Assembly: GCF_007004735.1 (NCBI RefSeq)
Contig: NZ_SSNL01000004.1
Coordinates: 620,001 to 684,000 of the forward strand
From: Salinigranum halophilum
GTDB taxonomy: Archaea > Halobacteriota > Halobacteria > Halobacteriales > Haloferacaceae
DNA: 64,000 nt
Direction of reading: 5' to 3'
The translations under genes were made by a program, and so were the position numbers. The notes under the pieces were generated by a model. It worked only from the letters and a program-made list of their open reading frames with translations. It searched no databases and had not been told where the DNA came from. Numbering within the stretch: the stretch's first letter is position 1; every line of letters begins with the position of its first letter. Of this stretch, positions 10,217 through 25,079 are shown piece by piece.

Positions 10217-11584
10217 TCACCGATGTGCGTCGAGGGCCGAAGCGTGACCCGTCGTCTCGTTCCGTGCCGGCAGCCAGTCCGGTCGGTCGACGGTCGTCTC
10301 GCCGACGTTCACGTGCCGCAGCGAGACCGTCGCGACCCGCTCACTGGCCGGGAGCCGGTAGGTCGCGTCGACCCGGACGACCAGTCCCCGTTCGGAGATG
10401 AGACTGGTGGCCCGGTAGGCTTCGAATCGACGGTCGGTGGTCCCCTCGACGGTGACGCGGTAGGCGGTCTCGTTCCGGTGCTGAACCTGGTCGACACGCG
10501 TGGAGCGCTCCCCCGACAGGTACCAGGTGACGAGCGCCTGTGAGCGGTCGACGACCTGTCCCGTCCCGGGGTCGTCGGCGTCGCCGACCCTGAGTGCCTC
10601 GTCGCCCTGTCGGAGGTACCGACTCTCCCCGTCCGCGTAGAGGTCCCGGGCGATGACCGGAACCAGGTCGGATTCGAGGTCGCCCGAACGGGTGCCACGT
10701 GAGCGATAGACCGTCCCGTTCTCGACAGTGACGACCTCCCGGGCCGTCCCGACGGTCTCGCCGTCGACGCGCTCGGTGTACCGAACGTGCATCGTGAACG
10801 AGCGGCCCTCGAGCACTGCCGCGTGACCCTGCGTGAGGACGGCCGTATCGTTGATTCCTGCCGCGGTCAGGCCGGGGAGTATCGCCTGGGACGCCGCGGT
10901 CGACACCGCCGTGTCCGTCGACGCGGTCGTCAGCGAGGCCGTGTCGTCCGCAGTGTCGGCCCCCAGCGCCGCATCGGTCCGCGCTGTGTCGGTCCAGGCC
11001 TGCGCGGCGAGCGCACCGCCGACGAGGCTCACGCCGAGGATCAAGAAGACGACGAGTATCCAGCGAGGGGTGTGGTCCGTCGAAGACTCGGTGAGGGCTG
11101 CTGTGGACCGGTTCGTGGCCCCGTCTCGTCGGTCGTCGTCAGCGGCGAGCACACCGGAACGTGGGCTCTCGGACCCGACATCCCCGGGCGTGGCTGGCCG
11201 GCCGATGGCCTCGCTCGTGACGCCGAAGTACTCGCCGAACAGGCGGTCGGTCGACGACCGGTCGAGTCCGTACCGCGCCATGTCGTAGACCGCGCTGGCG
11301 TCCCAGACGCTCACGTTGCGGTCCCGGGCCAGTTGTGTGGCCCGCTTCGCGTCGATGCTCACCACGGCGTCGACTGGCTCTCGTGGCAGGCCGCGACCGA
11401 GACGCGGAGAAAGGCCTTCGGAGGCGACAGCGACGACCTGCCGCTCGTCCCCTCGCGTCGCCCGAATCACCGGTGGGTCGACCTCGACGGTCCACCCGCG
11501 GGCGCTCAAGAGCGCGCCGACGAACGCGGTCCGCTCTCGTCTCGAGAGCCGAGTCAGGTGGTCGTCGAAGGGGTCCCGAGCCAT
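10217..11584 (-). CDS. Membrane protein: decayed Mrr-like N-domain, one TM helix, secreted C-domain
   Basis: A 455-residue protein. Residues 1-120 (RERTAFVGALLSARGWTVEV) resemble the start of Mrr-type restriction-endonuclease folds, but the catalytic D and QxK positions are not seen. A single membrane helix (WILVVFLILGVSLVGGALAA) near 175-195 follows a Ser/Thr/Asp linker. The remaining 250 residues form a presumed extracellular beta-rich domain ending near PDWLPARNET. The same order and similar C-terminal motifs occur in the protein at 26071-27363. No function is known. The gene converges on the ACT gene. Confidence 0.8.
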   Translation of the reverse strand: MARDPFDDHLTRLSRRERTAFVGALLSARGWTVEVDPPVIRATRGDERQVVAVASEGLSPRLGRGLPREPVDAVVSIDAKRATQLARDRNVSVWDASAVYDMARYGLDRSSTDRLFGEYFGVTSEAIGRPATPGDVGSESPRSGVLAADDDRRDGATNRSTAALTESSTDHTPRWILVVFLILGVSLVGGALAAQAWTDTARTDAALGADTADDTASLTTASTDTAVSTAASQAILPGLTAAGINDTAVLTQGHAAVLEGRSFTMHVRYTERVDGETVGTAREVVTVENGTVYRSRGTRSGDLESDLVPVIARDLYADGESRYLRQGDEALRVGDADDPGTGQVVDRSQALVTWYLSGERSTRVDQVQHRNETAYRVTVEGTTDRRFEAYRATSLISERGLVVRVDATYRLPASERVATVSLRHVNVGETTVDRPDWLPARNETTGHASALDAHR

Positions 11585-12091: not shown

Positions 12092-12637
12092 ATGAGTTCT
12101 CAGCAGACCATCCGTCAGGAGTTCGGAACCGTCAGAGAGAATCCCGTCCGCCTCGACGAGGAGAAGGCCAAACAGAGCATCGACGCGCTGAACTCGGATC
12201 TGGCAGCGACGTACGTCCTCTACCACCAGCTTCGCAAGCACCACTGGAACGTCGACGGGGCGGAGTATGGGCAACTCCACGATTGGTTCGGCGATGCCGC
12301 CGAGGACGCCGAGGAGGCTGCCGACGAGATGGCCGAGCGGGTGGGCGCACTCGGCGGCGTTCCCATCAGCGGTCCGGCCGCGCTCGAGGAGCACTCACCG
12401 GTCGACTTCGAGGGAGCAGACGTCTACGACGTCCGAACGTCGATGGAGAACGACCTCGAACTGTACGGCGACGTCATCGAGTACTTCCGAGAGCACGTGA
12501 TGCTCGTGGAGAACCTGGGCGACTACGCGACGAGCGAGCTCTTCCGGGACCGTCTCGAAGAACTCGAGGAGGACGCGGACGACCTCCAGAGCTTCCTCGC
12601 CGACGACACGCTCGTCCTCGAGAGCGCGACTCACTGA
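12092..12637 (+). CDS. dpsA: DpsA-type ferritin (DNA-binding protein from starved cells)
   Basis: A 181-residue Dps-family protein that oxidises and stores iron and protects DNA. The canonical inter-subunit ferroxidase ligands are visible by alignment to E. coli Dps: the histidine before W in RKHHWNV, the histidine in QLHDWF, and the aspartate and glutamate in ADEMAERV. An AT-rich promoter region with TATA-like runs lies at about 11985-12060. It is the first of three tandem paralogues and the only one with a complete ligand set. The intergenic space to the next gene is 13 bp. Confidence 0.92.
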   Translation: MSSQQTIRQEFGTVRENPVRLDEEKAKQSIDALNSDLAATYVLYHQLRKHHWNVDGAEYGQLHDWFGDAAEDAEEAADEMAERVGALGGVPISGPAALEEHSPVDFEGADVYDVRTSMENDLELYGDVIEYFREHVMLVENLGDYATSELFRDRLEELEEDADDLQSFLADDTLVLESATH

Positions 12638-12650
12638 ACGGGTGCGTCGA

Positions 12651-13226
12651 ATGGAACACAAACACGGACGGCTCGTTCGAGAGCCAGAGACGGGCGAACG
12701 CCGGCAAGAGTGGGGGACTCTCGCGGAGAACGCACTCCGTATCGATCCCACGGACGCCGAGGTGCTCGTCGACGCCCTGAGCATCGACCACGCGGGGTCG
12801 TTCAACCTGTTCTACCTGCTCCGCAAGCACTACTGGACCGCTGCGGGTGCCGAACACGAGGAGGTCGCCGACGTCCTCCTAGACGCGTACCGGCGTGTGC
12901 GTGCGGTGAACGACGACCTCGCGATTCGAATCGTCGAACTCGGTGGCATCCCCCCCAACACGCCGCCGACGATTCAAGAACGCGCCGAAGTCCACCTCGA
13001 AGCCGAGGACCTCTACGACCTGCGCGCCTCGCTGGAGGGCGACCTCGAGGGGTTCGCCACGCTAATCGAGACCATGCGTGAGCACGTCGGCCTCGCAGAG
13101 GAACGGGGTGATCCAGGGACGGCAGAACTCCTCCGGAACCGTCTCGCAGGGCTCGAAGCGGACGCCGACGATATCGAGAGCGCCCTCGCAGACGAGACGC
13201 TCGTTCGAGCAGCGGTGTGGAGGTAA
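12651..13226 (+). CDS. Dps-like paralogue with altered ferroxidase ligands (second in tandem)
   Basis: A 191-residue protein from ATG 12651 (GTG 12642 is an alternative). It keeps the four-helix Dps layout and the framework RKHYW, LGGIPP and EREDPGT-like turns. By eye, three of four ferroxidase positions differ from DpsA: the first histidine is Y (KHYW), the second is A (EEVADVL) and the glutamate is I (DDLAIRI), while the aspartate remains. It is likely to form a Dps-like cage or a mixed cage, or to have another ferritin-like role, without the classic iron-oxidation site. It lies in an operon with its neighbours. Confidence 0.85.
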   Translation: MEHKHGRLVREPETGERRQEWGTLAENALRIDPTDAEVLVDALSIDHAGSFNLFYLLRKHYWTAAGAEHEEVADVLLDAYRRVRAVNDDLAIRIVELGGIPPNTPPTIQERAEVHLEAEDLYDLRASLEGDLEGFATLIETMREHVGLAEERGDPGTAELLRNRLAGLEADADDIESALADETLVRAAVWR

Positions 13227-13232
13227 CGTACC

Positions 13233-13802
13233 ATGTCGAGTACACCACACCTGCGGAGCCTCGATCCCTCACACGTCCGCCAAGAGTGGGACACGGTCGC
13301 TGACAACGCGGTCCGGCTCGACCGGGAGGCGGCCGAACAGCTGGTGACGGCCCTGAACAGCGAAGTGTCGGGGCTGTACATCCTGTTCAACCAGGTCCGC
13401 AAGCATTACTGGCTCGTCGACGGGGCCGAGTCGGACGCAGTCGGCGAGTTCCTCGAGGCCGCGGCTGACCGACTCACCGAGATGACCGACGACATCGCCA
13501 TCCGCATCCACACGCTCGGGGGCGTCCCGGCCTGTGGACCGATGGGGATCCGTCAGCACGCCCCGATCTACATCGAGGCGGCCCACCGGTACGACGTCCG
13601 CTCGTCGCTCGAGCGTGACCGCGACGGGTACGCGACGCTGGCCGAGCAGTGGCGCGAACACGTCGAACTGGCAGAACGGCTCGGTGACGTGACGACGGGC
13701 AAACTCCTGCGCCGACACCTCAAGACGCTCGAGCGGGACGCGTACGTCCTCGACCGGTATCTCGGTGACGAGACGCTCGTCCTACACGACGCGACCGGGT
13801 GA
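13233..13802 (+). CDS. Dps-like paralogue with altered ferroxidase ligands (third in tandem)
   Basis: A 189-residue protein starting 7 bp after the previous stop. It shares with the second gene the changes H to Y (RKHYW), H to G (DAVGEFL) and E to I (DDIAIRI), and resembles it more than DpsA. The two therefore form a subfamily rather than random decay of DpsA copies. Length and helix pattern are normal for Dps. The strict tandem order suggests co-expression with DpsA and perhaps heteromeric assembly, which is an inference. Confidence 0.85.
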   Translation: MSSTPHLRSLDPSHVRQEWDTVADNAVRLDREAAEQLVTALNSEVSGLYILFNQVRKHYWLVDGAESDAVGEFLEAAADRLTEMTDDIAIRIHTLGGVPACGPMGIRQHAPIYIEAAHRYDVRSSLERDRDGYATLAEQWREHVELAERLGDVTTGKLLRRHLKTLERDAYVLDRYLGDETLVLHDATG

Positions 13803-14149: not shown

Positions 14150-15082
14150 TTACGCCGGGTGGCTCGTGCCGATAATCGTCACGAACCGGCCGTCACGAGA
14201 GACCGCCGTCTCATCCCACGTGCGCATCACATCCGACTGCGGGTCAGCGGCGAACGCCTCCGCGTCGTCTCGCGTCTCGAATGCGAGCACTCGTGTGGCA
14301 TTCTCGGTTTCGGCGCTCGTGCGGGCAGTGCCGCTCGCGGCCGGGTCGCCATCAGAAGCGTCGCCCCCGACGGGCGGTGACCCGGCACGGACAGTCATCC
14401 CGGTGCCGAGCCGACGGACGACACCCGCCAGAGTCTCGTCAGTATCAGTGTACCGCCCCTCGCCGTCTCGGGCGTCGATAATCGCCTCGACGGCCGCTCG
14501 CTTGTCACCCAATGGATCCGGCGCCATGCTGGCGAACGCCTCGATGACGACCCCAGCCTTGATACCGACGACCCAGTCAGTGTCGGGGGCACCGAACAGT
14601 CGATATCCTTCGTACTCGCCGAGACCGTCGAACGGCTCTTTGATCGGCTCGCTCGATTCTGGGGTTTGGAACGCCTCGATGATGGTGTCATCGAGGAGGT
14701 CAGTCTCCAGTACAGACAGCCCCCGCCCGCCGGCACGGAGCTCCATACCTGCTTGGCTCGGCTCGATGTCGAGCACCGGGTGTGCGTTGCCGTCTCGATA
14801 TCGTTCCTCCGACTCGAATGCTCTTCCCCGGTCGTGGAGATACGCTGCCAACTCGTCGAAGCGCCGGGCGCGGAACGGGTACCACCGTTGTGCAGGGTCG
14901 GTGTCCGAAGCGAAGACGCGGCCGGGCGCTGGGAGCCACGTCGCAGGGTACGGAACGTCAGGGCTCCCGTCGATGATCGACCCGACTCCCGAACAGCCAG
15001 CCAGGCTCGCAAGCGTCGCTGTCGTGGCGGCCGTTGTGCCGCGACGGAGTAAGGCCCGACGCGTGCAGGAGGGCTGTTGCAT
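14150..15082 (-). CDS. Tat-exported lipoprotein of unknown function
   Basis: A 310-residue protein with a twin-arginine signal (CTRRALLRRGTTAATT) and lipobox LAGC, so it should be exported folded and lipid-anchored. The mature part has no recognised catalytic motif. It has two similar alpha/beta halves (around DTIIEAFQT... and around ATRVLAFETRDDAEAFA...), perhaps a duplicated ferredoxin-like fold. It reads away from the pxp cluster across a 311-bp intergenic region that must hold both promoters. Confidence 0.8.
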   Translation of the reverse strand: MQQPSCTRRALLRRGTTAATTATLASLAGCSGVGSIIDGSPDVPYPATWLPAPGRVFASDTDPAQRWYPFRARRFDELAAYLHDRGRAFESEERYRDGNAHPVLDIEPSQAGMELRAGGRGLSVLETDLLDDTIIEAFQTPESSEPIKEPFDGLGEYEGYRLFGAPDTDWVVGIKAGVVIEAFASMAPDPLGDKRAAVEAIIDARDGEGRYTDTDETLAGVVRRLGTGMTVRAGSPPVGGDASDGDPAASGTARTSAETENATRVLAFETRDDAEAFAADPQSDVMRTWDETAVSRDGRFVTIIGTSHPA

Positions 15083-15393: not shown

Positions 15394-16296
15394 ATGACAG
15401 AGAGTAGAATTCGACGGGTCGACCTCCCGGAGCCGCAGTACGGGTTCGGTGGGGACGACCACGTCTTCGTCGAACTGGACCGTCAGATGTCGTTCGACGC
15501 CAATTTTCAGGCGATGGCGGTTACACAACAGATTCGAGAGCGTGACCTCGATGGCGTCATCGAGGTGTGTCCCGCGAACGCCTCGTATCTCGTGCGGTTC
15601 GATCCGGATGTGATTCCGCCCGCAACGATGATCGAGACGCTGCGGGAGATCGCCGAGAGTACAGATATCGAAGAGTACCAGTGGGAGGCACGAATCATCG
15701 ACTTTCCCGTGTTGTATCAGGACCCCTGGACACACGAGACACAGATGCAGTTTCGAGATCGTCACCAAGACCCCGATTCGACCGATCTCGAATACTGCGC
15801 TAAGATCAACGGGTACGACACGGTCGAAGCACTCATCGACGCACATGCGGGCGAACCCCACATGGTGACGATGATCGGGTTCGTTCCAGGGTTGGCGTGG
15901 TGTCATCAGATGGTCCCACGCGCTGCACAACTCGAAGCTCCGAAGTACGAACAGCCACGGACTGACACGCCAGCTCGTGCCATGGGATTCGGCGGGGCGT
16001 TCACGACTCCATACCCAGTCCAGGGTGCGGGAGGGTACCAGCTGTTCGGACGAACGCCCCTCGAGGTCCTCGATATCGAACAAGCGTTGCCGGACTTCGC
16101 GGAGTCGATGGTCCTTCCAAACCCCGGAGACATCTTCGACTTCCGTCAGATCGACCGCGACGAGTATGACCAGATCAGAGACGAAATCGAGGCCGGCGTG
16201 TACGAGTACACCATCGAAACGGTGGAGTTCTCGCCCGAGGCGTTCTTTGCGTCGCCGTACGAGTACAATCGGTCGCTCACGGAGGCGTTAGACTGA
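15394..16296 (+). CDS. pxpB: 5-oxoprolinase subunit B / KipI-like carboxyltransferase-domain protein
   Basis: A 300-residue protein of the PxpB/KipI (carboxyltransferase C) family. The diagnostic blocks are GFVPGLAW, the run of PR and PAR residues before GFGGAF, and GAGGYQLFGRTP near residues 215-226. In bacteria PxpB works with PxpC and PxpA to open 5-oxoproline with ATP; other homologues belong to allophanate and urea carboxylase systems. No pxpA (LamB/YcsF) gene is visible in the window, so the reaction is uncertain. The stop overlaps the next start by one base, so the two subunits are translationally coupled. Confidence 0.85.
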   Translation: MTESRIRRVDLPEPQYGFGGDDHVFVELDRQMSFDANFQAMAVTQQIRERDLDGVIEVCPANASYLVRFDPDVIPPATMIETLREIAESTDIEEYQWEARIIDFPVLYQDPWTHETQMQFRDRHQDPDSTDLEYCAKINGYDTVEALIDAHAGEPHMVTMIGFVPGLAWCHQMVPRAAQLEAPKYEQPRTDTPARAMGFGGAFTTPYPVQGAGGYQLFGRTPLEVLDIEQALPDFAESMVLPNPGDIFDFRQIDRDEYDQIRDEIEAGVYEYTIETVEFSPEAFFASPYEYNRSLTEALD

Positions 16297-17261
16297 TGCT
16301 GGATATCATCGACGGAGGCGTCTCGACCACGGTTCAGGACCTCGGCCGGTTCGGTCAGTACCACATCGGGATGCCCCCGTCGGGCGCGATGGACAGCTAC
16401 GCTCACAAACTAGCCAACTATCTCGTCGGCAACGCCGAGGATGCCGCCACGCTCGAGATGACCTACCAGGGTGTCGACGTCCGCTTCACCACCGATACCG
16501 TCGTCGCGCTGACTGGTGCCTCGATGCCTGCCACACTCGACGACGAGCCAGTGCCGATGTACGAGTCGTTCTCGGTGACGGCCGGACAGACGCTCGAAAC
16601 CGAGTTCGCGACCGAAGGCGTACGAACCTACCTCGCCGTGTCCGGCGGCATCGACGTCGACCCCGTCATGGGGAGCCGGTCGACGTACACGCTCGTCGGA
16701 ATCGGCGGTCACGAGGGCCGACCACTGGAGGCCGGTGACGAGCTTCGAATCGGAAGCGACTCCGACCGACCGCCAGTTGGGGTGCAGGTCCCCGATCGAT
16801 ATGTCCGTGACTACGGAACACGGGAGACGGTTCGGGTCCTGGTCGGGCTCTGTGAGTATCGCCTGACCGACGAGAGTCGCGAAGCACTCTGTGAAGCCGA
16901 GTGGAAGGTGACACCCGAGGCCGACCGGGTTGGGTACCGGCTGGAGGGCCCGGAACTGGACTTCGTCAAGCGTGAGCAGCCGTTCGGTGCAGGAAACGAC
17001 CCCTCGAACGTCGTCGACCTGGGCTACCCGATCGGGTCGATCCAGATGCCCAAAAAGCCGATCGTGTTGCTGCAGGATGCCGTGACCGGGGGCGGATACG
17101 CAACGGTAGGAACGGTGATCAGCGTCGACCGCTCTATCCTGGCTCAGCGCCGGACTCACCAGGCAGTGTACTTCGAGCCAGTCACCGTCGACGAAGCGGC
17201 CGCGGCCCGAGACGAGGTGCATGACGACCTACACGGAGCGTATGAATCGATCGGTCACTGA
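16296..17261 (+). CDS. pxpC: 5-oxoprolinase subunit C / KipA-like biotin-dependent carboxyltransferase domain protein
   Basis: A 321-residue partner of the preceding protein. It shows the family opening STTVQDLGRFGQYHIGMPPSGAMD and the central GGIDVDPVMGSRSTY, and ends near GGGYATVGTVISVDRSILAQ. The pair should form a heterodimer with a composite active site. Its place ahead of an importer operon suggests that the imported compound, or a product made from it, is the substrate, but this is inferred only from position. A gap of 140 bp with an AT-rich tract separates it from the ABC ATPase gene. Confidence 0.85.
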   Translation: MLDIIDGGVSTTVQDLGRFGQYHIGMPPSGAMDSYAHKLANYLVGNAEDAATLEMTYQGVDVRFTTDTVVALTGASMPATLDDEPVPMYESFSVTAGQTLETEFATEGVRTYLAVSGGIDVDPVMGSRSTYTLVGIGGHEGRPLEAGDELRIGSDSDRPPVGVQVPDRYVRDYGTRETVRVLVGLCEYRLTDESREALCEAEWKVTPEADRVGYRLEGPELDFVKREQPFGAGNDPSNVVDLGYPIGSIQMPKKPIVLLQDAVTGGGYATVGTVISVDRSILAQRRTHQAVYFEPVTVDEAAAARDEVHDDLHGAYESIGH

Positions 17262-17401: not shown

Positions 17402-18517
17402 ATGAGTGAAAGTGAAAAATCAACTGCCAGTGGTGATTCCTCTCAGTCCACTCCACAGAGCGTCATCGAGATCGACAACGTGCGGAAAGAATACCCCGGC
17501 GTCGTCGCGAACGACGACATCACGATCGACATCTACGAAGGCGAGTTCTTCACGCTGCTCGGTCCGTCGGGAAGCGGAAAGTCAACCCTGTTACAAATCA
17601 TCACAGGGACCAACACACCGACGAGTGGTGATGTGTACATCAGCGGCCAGCGAGTCAACGACGTGAAACCGTACAACCGGAGCACGAGCCTGATCTTTCA
17701 GGAATACGCGTTGTTCCCGCACATGACCGCTCGGGAGAACGTCGAATTCGGTCTGATGATTCAGGGGGTGGACAAGGCGGAACGCCAGCGGCGGTCGGAT
17801 TCGATGTTCGAGTTGATGGACCTCACGGGGAAAGAAGATCGGAAGATCTCAGCGCTCTCGGGAGGGGAACGCCAGCGGGTGGCCATGGCCCGGAGCCTCA
17901 TCATCGAACCCGACGTGCTCTTGCTCGATGAGGTGTTGAGCGCGCTGGACGTCAACCTCGCGAAAGAGATGCAAGTCGAGCTCAAACGCCTGCAAGAACA
18001 GATCGAGAAGACGTTCGTCTTCGTCACGCACAGTCAAGAAGAGGCGTTCACCATGTCCGACCGAATCGCGATCATGAACAAGGGGAAGGTGGTGCAAGTC
18101 GGGGCCCCACTAGAGGTGTATCAGAACCCCGATTCGGAGTTCGTCGCAGCGTTCCTCGGCGTGAGCAACATCTTCAGTGGGACCGTCACGTCGGTCCACG
18201 GAGAGACGGTCACCATCGATACCGGTGACTATACGTTCACCGTCACGGACACAGCGCAGTCTAGAGACCCCGGAGATGATATCGGCTTCATCATCGCAAA
18301 CGAGCGGCTGAACATCGGTGACGAGGGTGCGAACACGGTGGAAGGGACGATCCGGGACACCATCTTCAAGGGCCCATCGACGGAGTACACCGTTCGACTG
18401 GACAAGTCAGGAGAAGAGGTCACGGTTCACGAGTCCACTGGTGAGGTCCTCCACGAGGAAAAGACATCGGTAACCGTGAGCTTCGAACCGACGGCAGCGA
18501 AGTTACTAAAGAGATAA
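17402..18517 (+). CDS. ABC importer ATPase, spermidine/putrescine (PotA) type
   Basis: A 371-residue ATPase with Walker A GPSGSGKST, signature LSGGERQRVAMA, Walker B VLLLDEVLSALD (V replaces the usual P) and switch histidine VTHSQEEA. The C-terminal 110 residues form the regulatory TOBE-type domain typical of PotA/FbpC-like ATPases. An AT-rich tract precedes ATG 17402 (17350-17400), so the importer may also be transcribed from its own promoter. Together with the next three genes it makes a complete importer. Confidence 0.92.
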   Translation: MSESEKSTASGDSSQSTPQSVIEIDNVRKEYPGVVANDDITIDIYEGEFFTLLGPSGSGKSTLLQIITGTNTPTSGDVYISGQRVNDVKPYNRSTSLIFQEYALFPHMTARENVEFGLMIQGVDKAERQRRSDSMFELMDLTGKEDRKISALSGGERQRVAMARSLIIEPDVLLLDEVLSALDVNLAKEMQVELKRLQEQIEKTFVFVTHSQEEAFTMSDRIAIMNKGKVVQVGAPLEVYQNPDSEFVAAFLGVSNIFSGTVTSVHGETVTIDTGDYTFTVTDTAQSRDPGDDIGFIIANERLNIGDEGANTVEGTIRDTIFKGPSTEYTVRLDKSGEEVTVHESTGEVLHEEKTSVTVSFEPTAAKLLKR

Positions 18518-21804: not shown

Positions 21805-23460
21805 ATGCAAACACACCACTCGGCCACGCCGTCCGCTCCTGAAGAACACTCACGCGGTGCAGAGCGAACAGCTCTGGACGCGGCGATCAGTCTCGCAGCA
21901 CTCTTCAAGACGTGCTTGGGTCCGGATGGACGGAACAAACTGATCGCGACGGGAGAGGAGACCATCGTCACAAACGATATCCATCGGATATTCGACGCAG
22001 TGGACATCCCGGACCCAGTCGGTCGATTCGTCGTCCAGCATGTCGTCGCTCAGAAAGAAGACGTCGGCGATGGCTCCTTGACGACGCTCCTGCTCGCCGG
22101 TGCACTCTGTCGGAACGCAGACCGGCTCCTCGACGACGGCTACCGAAGAGCCACGATCGAAGACGGCTACGACCAAGCGCGGGCAGAAGCGCTGGCGGAA
22201 CTACAGCGGAGCGAGCGAGCGATCGGTGAACGCTCGACCGACAGAGCGAGCGCAGTACGGGGAGTCGCTCGTGGGGCACTCAACAGCTTCCGAGCCGAGC
22301 TCGTCGATATCGTTGTCGACGCCGCGACGCAAATCCACACCGAACGCCGGAAACGCAATCGTGGGCTCGACCTCTCGGACATCCGCATCCGGCTCGACGA
22401 CAAAGTGGACGACGCACCCGTCGAACTCATTCAGGGGCTCGTTCTCGACCGTGACGTCGTTCACGAATCCATGGCTCGGCGAGTCGAGCAGCCACGTATC
22501 GCGATCATCGGTGGGGGGAAGAAAGCCGGAAGCGGTATCGAGGAGCGCTCGCTGTTTCGCGCCGGTGGTTCTGACGGAGAAGGACGGACAGAGGTAACCT
22601 TCTCCGCGAGCGACGCGGATGATATCACCGCACTTCGTGAAGCCGAAGCGGCGCAAGTGCGTGCTCAGGTCGCTCGACTCGAGGACACACACGTCGATGC
22701 CGTGTTCTGTACGATGGGAATCAGCGACGTCGCCAAGCGACTGTTACACGACGCCGACATCACCGCGTTTCGCACACTGACCGAAACGGACGCGGCCCTG
22801 CTCGCTCGCGCGACCGGCGGGACTGTAGTCTTGGATATCGCCGATTTGACCGAGGAAGCCATCGGAACCGCTGGACGCCTCGTGGTCGATTCGACTGACG
22901 ACCCGACCGTCACCATCGCAGGCTGTCCTGCGGGAACGGTTGCGACGCTGCGTGTCTCCGGAGCACTCGGGGAGTATCGGACAGAGCGAGAGCGCGATTT
23001 TCGAGCCGCGATGGCGGTGGTGCTGGATGTCTTGAGCGAAGAGACCGTCGTCCCTGCCGGCGGTGGAATCGAGATACGACTGGCCACGGCCGTGCGAGAG
23101 CGTGCACGGACCGTCGGCGACCGACGTGCAGTGGCGATGGACGCGTATGCGGATGCACTCGAGGAGATTCCGCGAACCCTGGCAACCAACGGCGGTGTGG
23201 CTGCCATCGACATCGTTACCGAACTCCGTCGGTGCGAGGACAGCGGGTTCGACACAGCGAGTGGTGACGTTCGCGAGGCGTTCCCTGCGGGCCCGCTCGT
23301 GAGCCCGCGAGTCGTCTCCGCGTCTCTCGACACGGCGACACACATCGCGACGCGACTGGTTCGAATCGACGACGTACTCACAGGCGGTGAGGACGAGGAG
23401 TGGATTTCGGCTGACGAAATCGACCCACGCCCGGTACCGTCGCGCGACTTCGACTACTGA
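21805..23460 (+). CDS. Divergent group II chaperonin paralogue A (thermosome-like, catalytic Asp lost)
   Basis: A 551-residue TCP-1/cpn60 family protein. Recognisable landmarks are LGPDGRNKLI (normally LGPKGMDKML), TND (normally TNDGATI), VGDGSLTTLLLAGALC at 87-102 (normally GDGTTTAVVLAG), VVPAGGGIEIRLA and the C-terminal VRIDDVL. The aspartate that activates water for ATP hydrolysis (in the DA of EDAL in ordinary haloarchaeal subunits) aligns with A401 in RAAM, so hydrolysis should be lost or weak. The glycine-rich Met tail of standard thermosome subunits is absent. It is co-oriented with the importer upstream and paralogue B downstream, a setting not typical for a housekeeping chaperonin. 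Confidence 0.88.
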   Translation: MQTHHSATPSAPEEHSRGAERTALDAAISLAALFKTCLGPDGRNKLIATGEETIVTNDIHRIFDAVDIPDPVGRFVVQHVVAQKEDVGDGSLTTLLLAGALCRNADRLLDDGYRRATIEDGYDQARAEALAELQRSERAIGERSTDRASAVRGVARGALNSFRAELVDIVVDAATQIHTERRKRNRGLDLSDIRIRLDDKVDDAPVELIQGLVLDRDVVHESMARRVEQPRIAIIGGGKKAGSGIEERSLFRAGGSDGEGRTEVTFSASDADDITALREAEAAQVRAQVARLEDTHVDAVFCTMGISDVAKRLLHDADITAFRTLTETDAALLARATGGTVVLDIADLTEEAIGTAGRLVVDSTDDPTVTIAGCPAGTVATLRVSGALGEYRTERERDFRAAMAVVLDVLSEETVVPAGGGIEIRLATAVRERARTVGDRRAVAMDAYADALEEIPRTLATNGGVAAIDIVTELRRCEDSGFDTASGDVREAFPAGPLVSPRVVSASLDTATHIATRLVRIDDVLTGGEDEEWISADEIDPRPVPSRDFDY

Positions 23461-23498: not shown

Positions 23499-25079
23499 AT
23501 GCGCGACATCCCCGAAAGCGAAAGTGAGATTGCAGGAATCGTCAGCCCGGAGACAACCCGTTCCGGGCCGAAATCGGCCCGTGAGATCAATCTCTCGGCG
23601 GTTCAATCCGTCGTCGAGACGGTCAGGTCGACGCTTGGCCCTCGCGGGAAAGACAAGTTGATCGAGAAGCCGGATGGCGAAGTGCTGATCACGAACGACT
23701 CCGAGACGATCCTGTCTGAGACGGCAGTATCAAATCCAGTTGCATCCCTGACGATCAGCGTGGCGAAGGCGGTCGGACAGGAGTACCACGACGGATCGAC
23801 GACAGCGGTGATACTGACCGGCGCGCTGCTTGACGCTGCGGAGTCTCTCATCGAACAGGGCGTCGCGCCGAACGTGGTTGCGCGTGGATTCGAACGCGCA
23901 CGACAGTGTGCCGATCGCTCGCTCGATGACGTGATGATACCGGGTGGCTGGAACGTCGAGGTACTGACGCATGTCGCAGAGACCGCGACGACCGGAACCG
24001 GACTCGGCATGGCGGGGTCCGACGTGGCGACGCTGGTCGTCGAGGCGGCAGAGCTGGTTCGGGACGCTGACTCGTTCGACCCAGACCGGATACGAATCGT
24101 GACACAGACCGGGCAGTCTCCAGCGACCTCGACTGTGAGCCGTACGGTTGCATTGGCCAAGGACCCAGTGCGGCAAGCGATGCCGGACGAGGTTATCGAT
24201 GGCCGTGTCCTCTTCATCCGTGGTTCTCTCGAGCTTTCGGATACCAACCAAAAGACGTCTATCGTCATCGAGGATGTCGACTCGTTCACGCGCTTCCACG
24301 AGCGAGAGGCCACCGAGATTCGCGACCTCGCTGGACGCGTCGTCGACCTCGGTGCTGACGCCGTCCTCTGTTCGAGGAGCATCGCCGACGAGGCACAGTC
24401 CGTCCTGAGCCGCGAAAACGTCCTGGCGATCCGCCAAGTGGATGAGGACGCACTCAATACGATCGCAGCCTCACTCGGCGGAACGGTCGTCTCGAGCGTC
24501 ACGGAAGCGACCACCGACGACCTCGGCTCCGGTGACTTCCGACGCGACCCGGACGACGAGTTGTTCTGTATCGAAGGCAACGGGGAGCCACGACCGACGA
24601 TCATCATCCGCGGCCCGACACAGGGGATGGTCGACGAACTCAGCCAGCACGTAGAGACAGGACTCGAAATCGTCGCCGGGGCGAGTGACGGCGGCGTCGT
24701 CGGCGGAGCAGGAGCGCTCGAGGTGGAACTCAGCCACAGGCTCCGCCGGGCCGCACGGGGGATCGACGGCCGAGAGCAACTCGCGTTCGAGGCGTTTGCA
24801 GATGCCTTAGAGCAGATTCCACAGACGCTCGGAGAAAACGCCGGTCTTGACCCGGTCGATGCACTCGTCTCACTCCGGACAGCACACGCGAGCGGTGATC
24901 GCTGGGCTGGCATCGGGGAAAACGGAGACATCATCAACGCCGTCGACACGAACGTGTACGAGCCCGTCGAGATGAAACGACAGGTGTTGAAGAGTGCGAC
25001 CGAGGCAGCGACACTGGTCTTACGTATCGACGATGTCCTGACAGTCGATGCGTTATCCGAGTCGCTCAGCTCGGACTGA
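23499..25079 (+). CDS. Divergent group II chaperonin paralogue B (thermosome-like, catalytic Asp lost)
   Basis: A 526-residue family member closer to normal than A. Landmarks are LGPRGKDKLIEK, ITNDSETIL, HDGSTTAVILTGALL at 97-111, VVGGAGALEVEL, GREQLAFEAFADALEQIPQTLGENAGLDPVDAL, DRWAGIG and LRIDDVL. The catalytic aspartate position is T387 (VETGL in place of VEDAL). The metal and phosphate-binding D98 and neighbouring T residues remain. It probably still binds ATP. Two dead-looking subunits side by side suggest a heteromeric ring, or regulatory partners of the main thermosome; this is inference. It ends the co-directional cluster and converges with the SDR gene. Confidence 0.88.
   Translation: MRDIPESESEIAGIVSPETTRSGPKSAREINLSAVQSVVETVRSTLGPRGKDKLIEKPDGEVLITNDSETILSETAVSNPVASLTISVAKAVGQEYHDGSTTAVILTGALLDAAESLIEQGVAPNVVARGFERARQCADRSLDDVMIPGGWNVEVLTHVAETATTGTGLGMAGSDVATLVVEAAELVRDADSFDPDRIRIVTQTGQSPATSTVSRTVALAKDPVRQAMPDEVIDGRVLFIRGSLELSDTNQKTSIVIEDVDSFTRFHEREATEIRDLAGRVVDLGADAVLCSRSIADEAQSVLSRENVLAIRQVDEDALNTIAASLGGTVVSSVTEATTDDLGSGDFRRDPDDELFCIEGNGEPRPTIIIRGPTQGMVDELSQHVETGLEIVAGASDGGVVGGAGALEVELSHRLRRAARGIDGREQLAFEAFADALEQIPQTLGENAGLDPVDALVSLRTAHASGDRWAGIGENGDIINAVDTNVYEPVEMKRQVLKSATEAATLVLRIDDVLTVDALSESLSSD

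Follow-up and report, generated by a model that had tools for sequence, protein, structure and literature searches.

Dps proteins are described as homododecamers (in the excerpted text of PMC9103930), and their canonical ferroxidase centre sits between subunits, with two histidines and an aspartate supplied by one subunit and an aspartate and a glutamate by the next (in the accessible sections of PMC6675082). The DpsA of Halobacterium salinarum has been solved in several forms (PDB 1moj, 1tjo, 1tk6, 1tko and 1tkp) and is represented by the NCBIfam model NF041388; residues are numbered here as in that protein (1moj). In this numbering, E154 is a nucleation residue (according to part of the text of PMC12532284). 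Ferritins built from unlike subunits are already known, as are proteins that combine the Dps fold with an unusual centre, and the available portions of the papers searched did not mention a heterododecameric Dps.

The window analyzed here is a stretch of 64,000 nt from Salinigranum halophilum (contig NZ_SSNL01000004.1 of assembly GCF_007004735.1, positions 620,001-684,000, forward strand), in which three Dps genes lie in tandem on the plus strand. Their first-pass annotation as Dps genes holds, since each is an intact open reading frame that scores above the PF00210 cut-off of 24.5 bits (54.3 bits for gene 2 and 64.6 bits for gene 3). Gene 1 (12092-12637, 181 aa) encodes a canonical DpsA with its ferroxidase ligands intact, and gene 2 (12651-13226, 191 aa) and gene 3 (13233-13802, 189 aa), which represent the groups we call class 2 and class 3, are each predicted to encode a ferroxidase-dead Dps subunit. 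The spacers measure 13 bases between genes 1 and 2 and 6 bases between genes 2 and 3, taking the ATG at 12651 as the start of gene 2 (translation could also begin earlier, at the in-frame GTG at 12642). The closest solved structure to gene 1 was H. salinarum DpsA (1moj and the four further entries, E=3.8e-59), which was also the closest solved relative by sequence of genes 2 and 3. Gene 2 shares 43% identity with gene 1, and gene 3 shares 46%. An AlphaFold2 model of gene 2 (pLDDT 79.7) has the Dps four-helix-bundle fold, and its best PDB matches were 1moj chains (1moj_A best, E=7.7e-9, TM 0.78/0.82). Against NF041388 (cut-off 170 bits), gene 1 scored 279.6 and gene 3 182.8, with gene 2 falling below the cut-off at 165.7; the model also matched 20 of 20 members tried of class 2 and 20 of 20 of class 3, scores being compared with the cut-off for the window genes only. 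Five PF00210 matches occur in the window genome; besides the trio of the cassette, these are a second dpsA of canonical type, located on a different contig, and a ferritin-like gene that is more distantly related. The reading frames flanking the cassette, both on the minus strand (10217-11584 and 14150-15082), had no Pfam match at E 0.001.

The ferroxidase site separates gene 1 from its two neighbors. In a four-sequence alignment, positions 52, 64, 79 and 83 read H, H, D and E in gene 1, Y, A, D and I in gene 2, and Y, G, D and I in gene 3, which bears out the first-pass account of a complete ligand set in the first gene and of histidines exchanged for tyrosine and for alanine or glycine in the other two. 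Because the alignment is gap-free across the ferroxidase helices, the ligands of genes 2 and 3 are absent rather than offset, and the idea that they had been displaced was rejected. Class counts included all members from the 44 loci described below (44 each for classes 2 and 3) and 29 class 1 proteins, comprising 27 encoded directly upstream of pairs, one 5 kb from its pair (locus L052) and the second dpsA of the window genome. All 29 class 1 proteins have H52, H64, D79 and E83. H64 occurs in no member of class 2 or class 3, and D79 persists in 43/44 and 44/44, respectively; position 52 is Y in 40, F in 2 and H in 2 members of class 2, and Y in 32, F in 2, H in 2 and other residues in the rest of class 3. 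The reported change of E83 to isoleucine applies to both window genes but is not universal, as 10 of 44 class 2 relatives keep the glutamate (0/44 in class 3). Among residues invariant in class 1, H46, E75 and D/E128 are gone from every class 2 and class 3 member, and E131 is retained in 3/44 of each class. The window pair has N (gene 2) and R (gene 3) at the nucleation position E154, so iron storage is not favored for it; E154 is kept only partly among relatives.

Residues around the lost ligands have become fixed in patterns particular to each class. Both classes gained R73 (43/44 in each), and they diverge at position 46 (Y in 43/44 of class 2 versus N in 44/44 of class 3), position 43 (N in 44/44 versus I/L/V), position 75 (R in 43/44 versus T/S/A) and position 72 (K/R in 30/44 versus D in 42/44). 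Judging from sequence, the contrast at positions 72 and 75, where class 2 is basic and class 3 has D72 and T/S/A75, could favor unlike pairs. The nearly fixed neighbors of the ligand positions are 42, 43, 45, 46, 73 and 75 in class 2 and 42, 45, 46, 72, 73 and 78 in class 3. Variability is close to its maximum at position 64 of class 3 and position 83 of class 2 (99th and 97th entropy percentile, respectively) and middling at the remaining ligand positions. The site seems to have been eliminated and the residues around it reshaped, and it does not look adapted to a different metal.

Among 170 genomes of the family, 16 have an orthologue of gene 3 (at least 52% identity, E 1.5e-57 or better), as do 38 of 392 genomes sampled from the order, where the orthologues span five families; the altered site is thus no chance feature of a single genome. 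The two samples overlap and together yield 44 loci. The pair was not found in any of the three other species examined from the genus of the window. At every one of the 44 class 3 loci, the first Dps gene met on the upstream side is a class 2 gene in the same orientation. The two genes overlap by 4 bases in 22 loci and are 1-6 bases apart in 18 (40/44 within -4 to +6); outlying gaps measure 13 bases at L088, where gene 2 is broken, and 403 bases at the damaged L092, and the other two loci are fused. A search from the class 2 side found class 3 next in 26/26 loci with downstream DNA (after ~380 bases in L097), a count that is not independent of the first since 22 of the 26 loci are already in the 44. 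Outside these 26 stand L120, which meets a contig end, L121, a match of only 27 residues that we count among the damaged-looking copies, and L122, a weak bacterial match.

Classes 2 and 3 are fused in one uninterrupted reading frame, through a hydrophilic linker, in Halogranum amylolyticum and H. rubrum (L100, 3501-4691, and L114, 3492-4736, both on the plus strand; compared with the single subunits in a 6-row alignment). A third Halogranum genome (G047) had a single Dps match and no pair. An AlphaFold2 model of the natural fusion (pLDDT 61.9, pTM 0.54, whole-chain TM 0.19) was too weak to describe the packing of its halves. In a sample of the phylum, a class 2 profile gave strong matches (E below 1e-88) in 6/392 genomes, and the matching genomes listed all belong to the window's own order, which makes up an unspecified share of the 392. 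Gene 3 had no match among phage records; gene 2 matched 15 plasmid records, exceeding 60% identity only in Halarchaeum sp. CBA1220, where the one annotated record inspected has three genes all annotated dpsA.

In a tree of 102 of the 132 aligned rows, built by a quick method with SH-aLRT support, class 2 (98) and class 3 (99) formed two clades that are sisters of each other (joint support 100) and are nested in a group (96) with 14 of 20 canonical genes labelled cassette partners. The window copies cluster with members from other families (support 99 for class 2 and 97 for class 3), which suggests that the cassette moved by horizontal transfer. Related loci were compared within eight informally named groups (three consisting of one species pair each), and dN/dS was below 0.43 in every pair; group medians were 0.17-0.33 for class 2, 0.16-0.41 for class 3 and, in four groups, 0.09-0.16 for class 1. 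Classes 2 and 3 are under purifying selection, on which ground recent pseudogenization was rejected, and their dN/dS, 1.2-2.1 times the canonical value in the four comparable groups, points to looser constraint. The copies at L088 (a frame break in gene 2) and L092 (an in-frame TGA in gene 3 besides its 403-base gap) look damaged. The first-pass proposal of a maintained subfamily is therefore right as to maintenance and as to the loss of the ferroxidase site, but these genes form two sister clades, not one.

A canonical dps lies directly upstream of the pair in 27/44 cassettes, 1-13 bases away or with a 1-base overlap, and 17/44 lack an adjacent canonical gene (that of L052 being the distant one noted above). 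More than one dpsA lineage is represented among the upstream genes: five family f7 rows, the Haloterrigena salina locus among them, lie outside the clade of most others. The canonical gene upstream of the pair is optional. With the Dps genes and the frames antisense to them set aside, clustering of the neighborhoods at the 44 loci (~6 kb on each side, less at contig ends) gave no gene family present at more than 7 loci, so the cassette seems to be a unit of its own. At 7/44 loci (L091 and six others), a reading frame that by eye resembles a heavy-metal P-type ATPase is found in the vicinity of the cassette, at varying distance. Elsewhere in the window, on the plus strand, adjacent carboxyltransferase-domain genes (CT_C_D then CT_A_B, 15394-17261) stand ahead of ABC transporter genes that begin at 17402, and directly after the transporter cluster come tandem Cpn60_TCP1-family chaperonin genes (21805-23460 and 23499-25079, also plus strand; 551 and 526 aa, 38 bases apart). 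We take the carboxyltransferase pair to resemble PxpB/PxpC of 5-oxoprolinase.

Many cassettes are preceded by a palindrome, TTTAGG-N4-CCTAAA, which we scored as present at 10 or more of 12 matches within 150 bases upstream. It precedes 28/44 cassettes (22/27 with three genes and 6/17 with two) and occurs in 23 of 4400 dinucleotide shuffles (0.5%) and 26 of 3758 random windows from the same loci (0.7%), an enrichment that is partly built in because the consensus was drawn from these upstream regions and the loci are related. The cassette of the window has no such palindrome (best score 7/12), and the whole window has no site scoring at least 10. In a sample of solo dpsA loci, the palindrome was found within 250 bases upstream in 4/17 and downstream in 14/17; we rejected it as a general dpsA operator and limit our claim to its preceding many cassettes. 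In the window genome (L002) and two genus-mates (L007 and L008), it lies downstream of the solo dpsA and before a reading frame that by eye is old-yellow-enzyme-like. The palindrome presumably resembles the sites of DtxR-type iron regulators. Four regulators of the DtxR type have been reported in Halobacterium (in the accessible part of PMC6978704).

Paired Dps genes without the iron-oxidizing site, fused in two species, suggest a two-part shell with a job other than iron oxidation. We lean towards the explanation that genes 2 and 3 encode paired non-catalytic subunits of a mixed Dps-type shell and give it, with its account of origin and its role in stress, somewhat better than even chances. 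A canonical dpsA copy would have lost its intersubunit ferroxidase centre and then duplicated, splitting into two complementary subunits that co-assemble, probably as a 12-mer. The Dps fold would have been kept, and the two-fold pocket de-metallated and remodelled with Y52, R73, D79 and the class-specific residues, so that the shell would be unable to oxidize Fe(II) as DpsA does. It may serve as a companion shell in the response to metal and oxidative stress, acting beside rather than inside canonical DpsA. Heteromer formation, which the first-pass annotation had offered as one of several activities, is a good possibility given the strict pairing and the natural fusion; counting against our explanation, genes can stay paired in one operon even if their products do not co-assemble. 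We hold more tentatively, as well short of an even bet, that the two unlike subunits form an obligate ferroxidase-dead cage with a role other than iron oxidation, in which the pocket is a heterodimer lock with K/R72, R73 and R75 of subunit 2 facing D72 of subunit 3. Such a shell, which would be a heterododecameric Dps, might house an anionic ligand, for example, or a guest molecule.

Shared assembly need not stop at the pair: subunits 2 and 3 might join canonical DpsA, whose ferroxidase centres they would then dilute or tune, as L chains do in vertebrate ferritin. The canonical gene directly upstream in 27 of the cassettes speaks for this, as do mixed-subunit ferritins such as Magnetospirillum Bfr1/Bfr2 (as given in part of PMC6529640). 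However, the other 17 cassettes have no adjacent canonical gene, the upstream ones derive from different dpsA lineages, and the natural fusion links 2 to 3, not to 1. Moreover, since a Dps centre takes its ligands from two subunits (per the available text of PMC6675082), an interface mixed with DpsA would hold half a centre at best, and we judge this arrangement unlikely. A centre rebuilt for a different metal, as the first-pass annotation suggested, or for a different cofactor would draw on Y52, D79 and R73, together with C94 in class 3. Near-invariance of D79 in both classes, the frequency of Y/F52 (42/44 in class 2 and 34/44 in class 3) and a cysteine at position 94 in 73% of class 3 fit this idea, but small or hydrophobic residues (A, G, S, V, I or L) predominate where the ligands once stood, two of these positions rank among the most variable sites, and several residues that have newly become fixed, namely R, N, T and F, are poor metal ligands. 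We find the suggestion unsupported and give it little credence.

Each subunit might instead form its own homomeric cage, one that binds and shields DNA without oxidizing iron. A basic DNA-binding tail is a feature of some Dps proteins, and in Lactococcus lactis Dps the N-terminal helix is reportedly required for DNA binding, a finding credited to Stillman in 2005. Class 2 and 3 tails are 8-10 residues longer than those of class 1 and have a conserved motif, and the proteins are less acidic than DpsA (median whole-protein charge -23 in class 2 and -14 in class 3, versus -32 in class 1). Their tails, however, are not basic, with a median net charge of -1 in both classes, and near-neutral tails on acidic proteins do not favor DNA binding; nor would homomeric cages need two separately maintained, sometimes fused subunits. 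We consider such cages very improbable, and the first-pass suggestion of DNA binding as the sole activity finds no support in these charges. Scarcely credible, finally, is that the pair consists of decaying duplicates heading for loss: three damaged copies (L088, L092 and L121), patchy presence and absence from the three congeners examined would agree with decay, but dN/dS below 0.43 in all pairs, presence in five families and fixed class-specific residues do not.

A mixed shell of subunits 2 and 3, if real, would mean that a metal-oxidizing cage can turn into a heteromeric scaffold, and would offer a natural two-component cage for protein engineering. The NCBI DpsA model, moreover, takes in proteins without the defining ferroxidase site. 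In the literature searched, which left most subscription journals outside, we found no report, structure or assay of the class 2-class 3 pair. Its nearest solved relative, by the sequence of both genes and the fold of gene 2, is H. salinarum DpsA, and the aligned part is gap-free; genes 2 and 3 differ from it in lacking H52, H64, E83, H46, E75, D128 and E131 and in having N or R at E154. Lactococcus lactis Dps proteins are also said to lack the usual ferroxidase centre and, unlike the pair proposed here, not to form an obligate unlike pair. Nostoc Dps4 (with a His-type centre), DPSL, Pseudomonas aeruginosa PA4880 and Microbacterium AAH likewise combine the Dps fold with altered chemistry (Dps4 and DPSL in the available parts of PMC6675082 and PMC12532284, PA4880 and AAH in published abstracts). 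As far as those texts describe them, the first three possess a genuine ferroxidase centre of another kind, and hydrolase activity is reported for AAH; classes 2 and 3, by contrast, have no clear replacement set of ligands. Magnetospirillum Bfr1/Bfr2 (in the accessible text of PMC6529640) and vertebrate H/L ferritins (in that of PMC12532284) resemble the pair in placing distinct paralogous subunits in one shell, as we infer for subunits 2 and 3. Those ferritins assemble as 24-mers, with a ferroxidase centre preserved in one kind of subunit at least, whereas both partners in the class 2-class 3 pair lack the centre, and their shell would be of the 12-mer kind.
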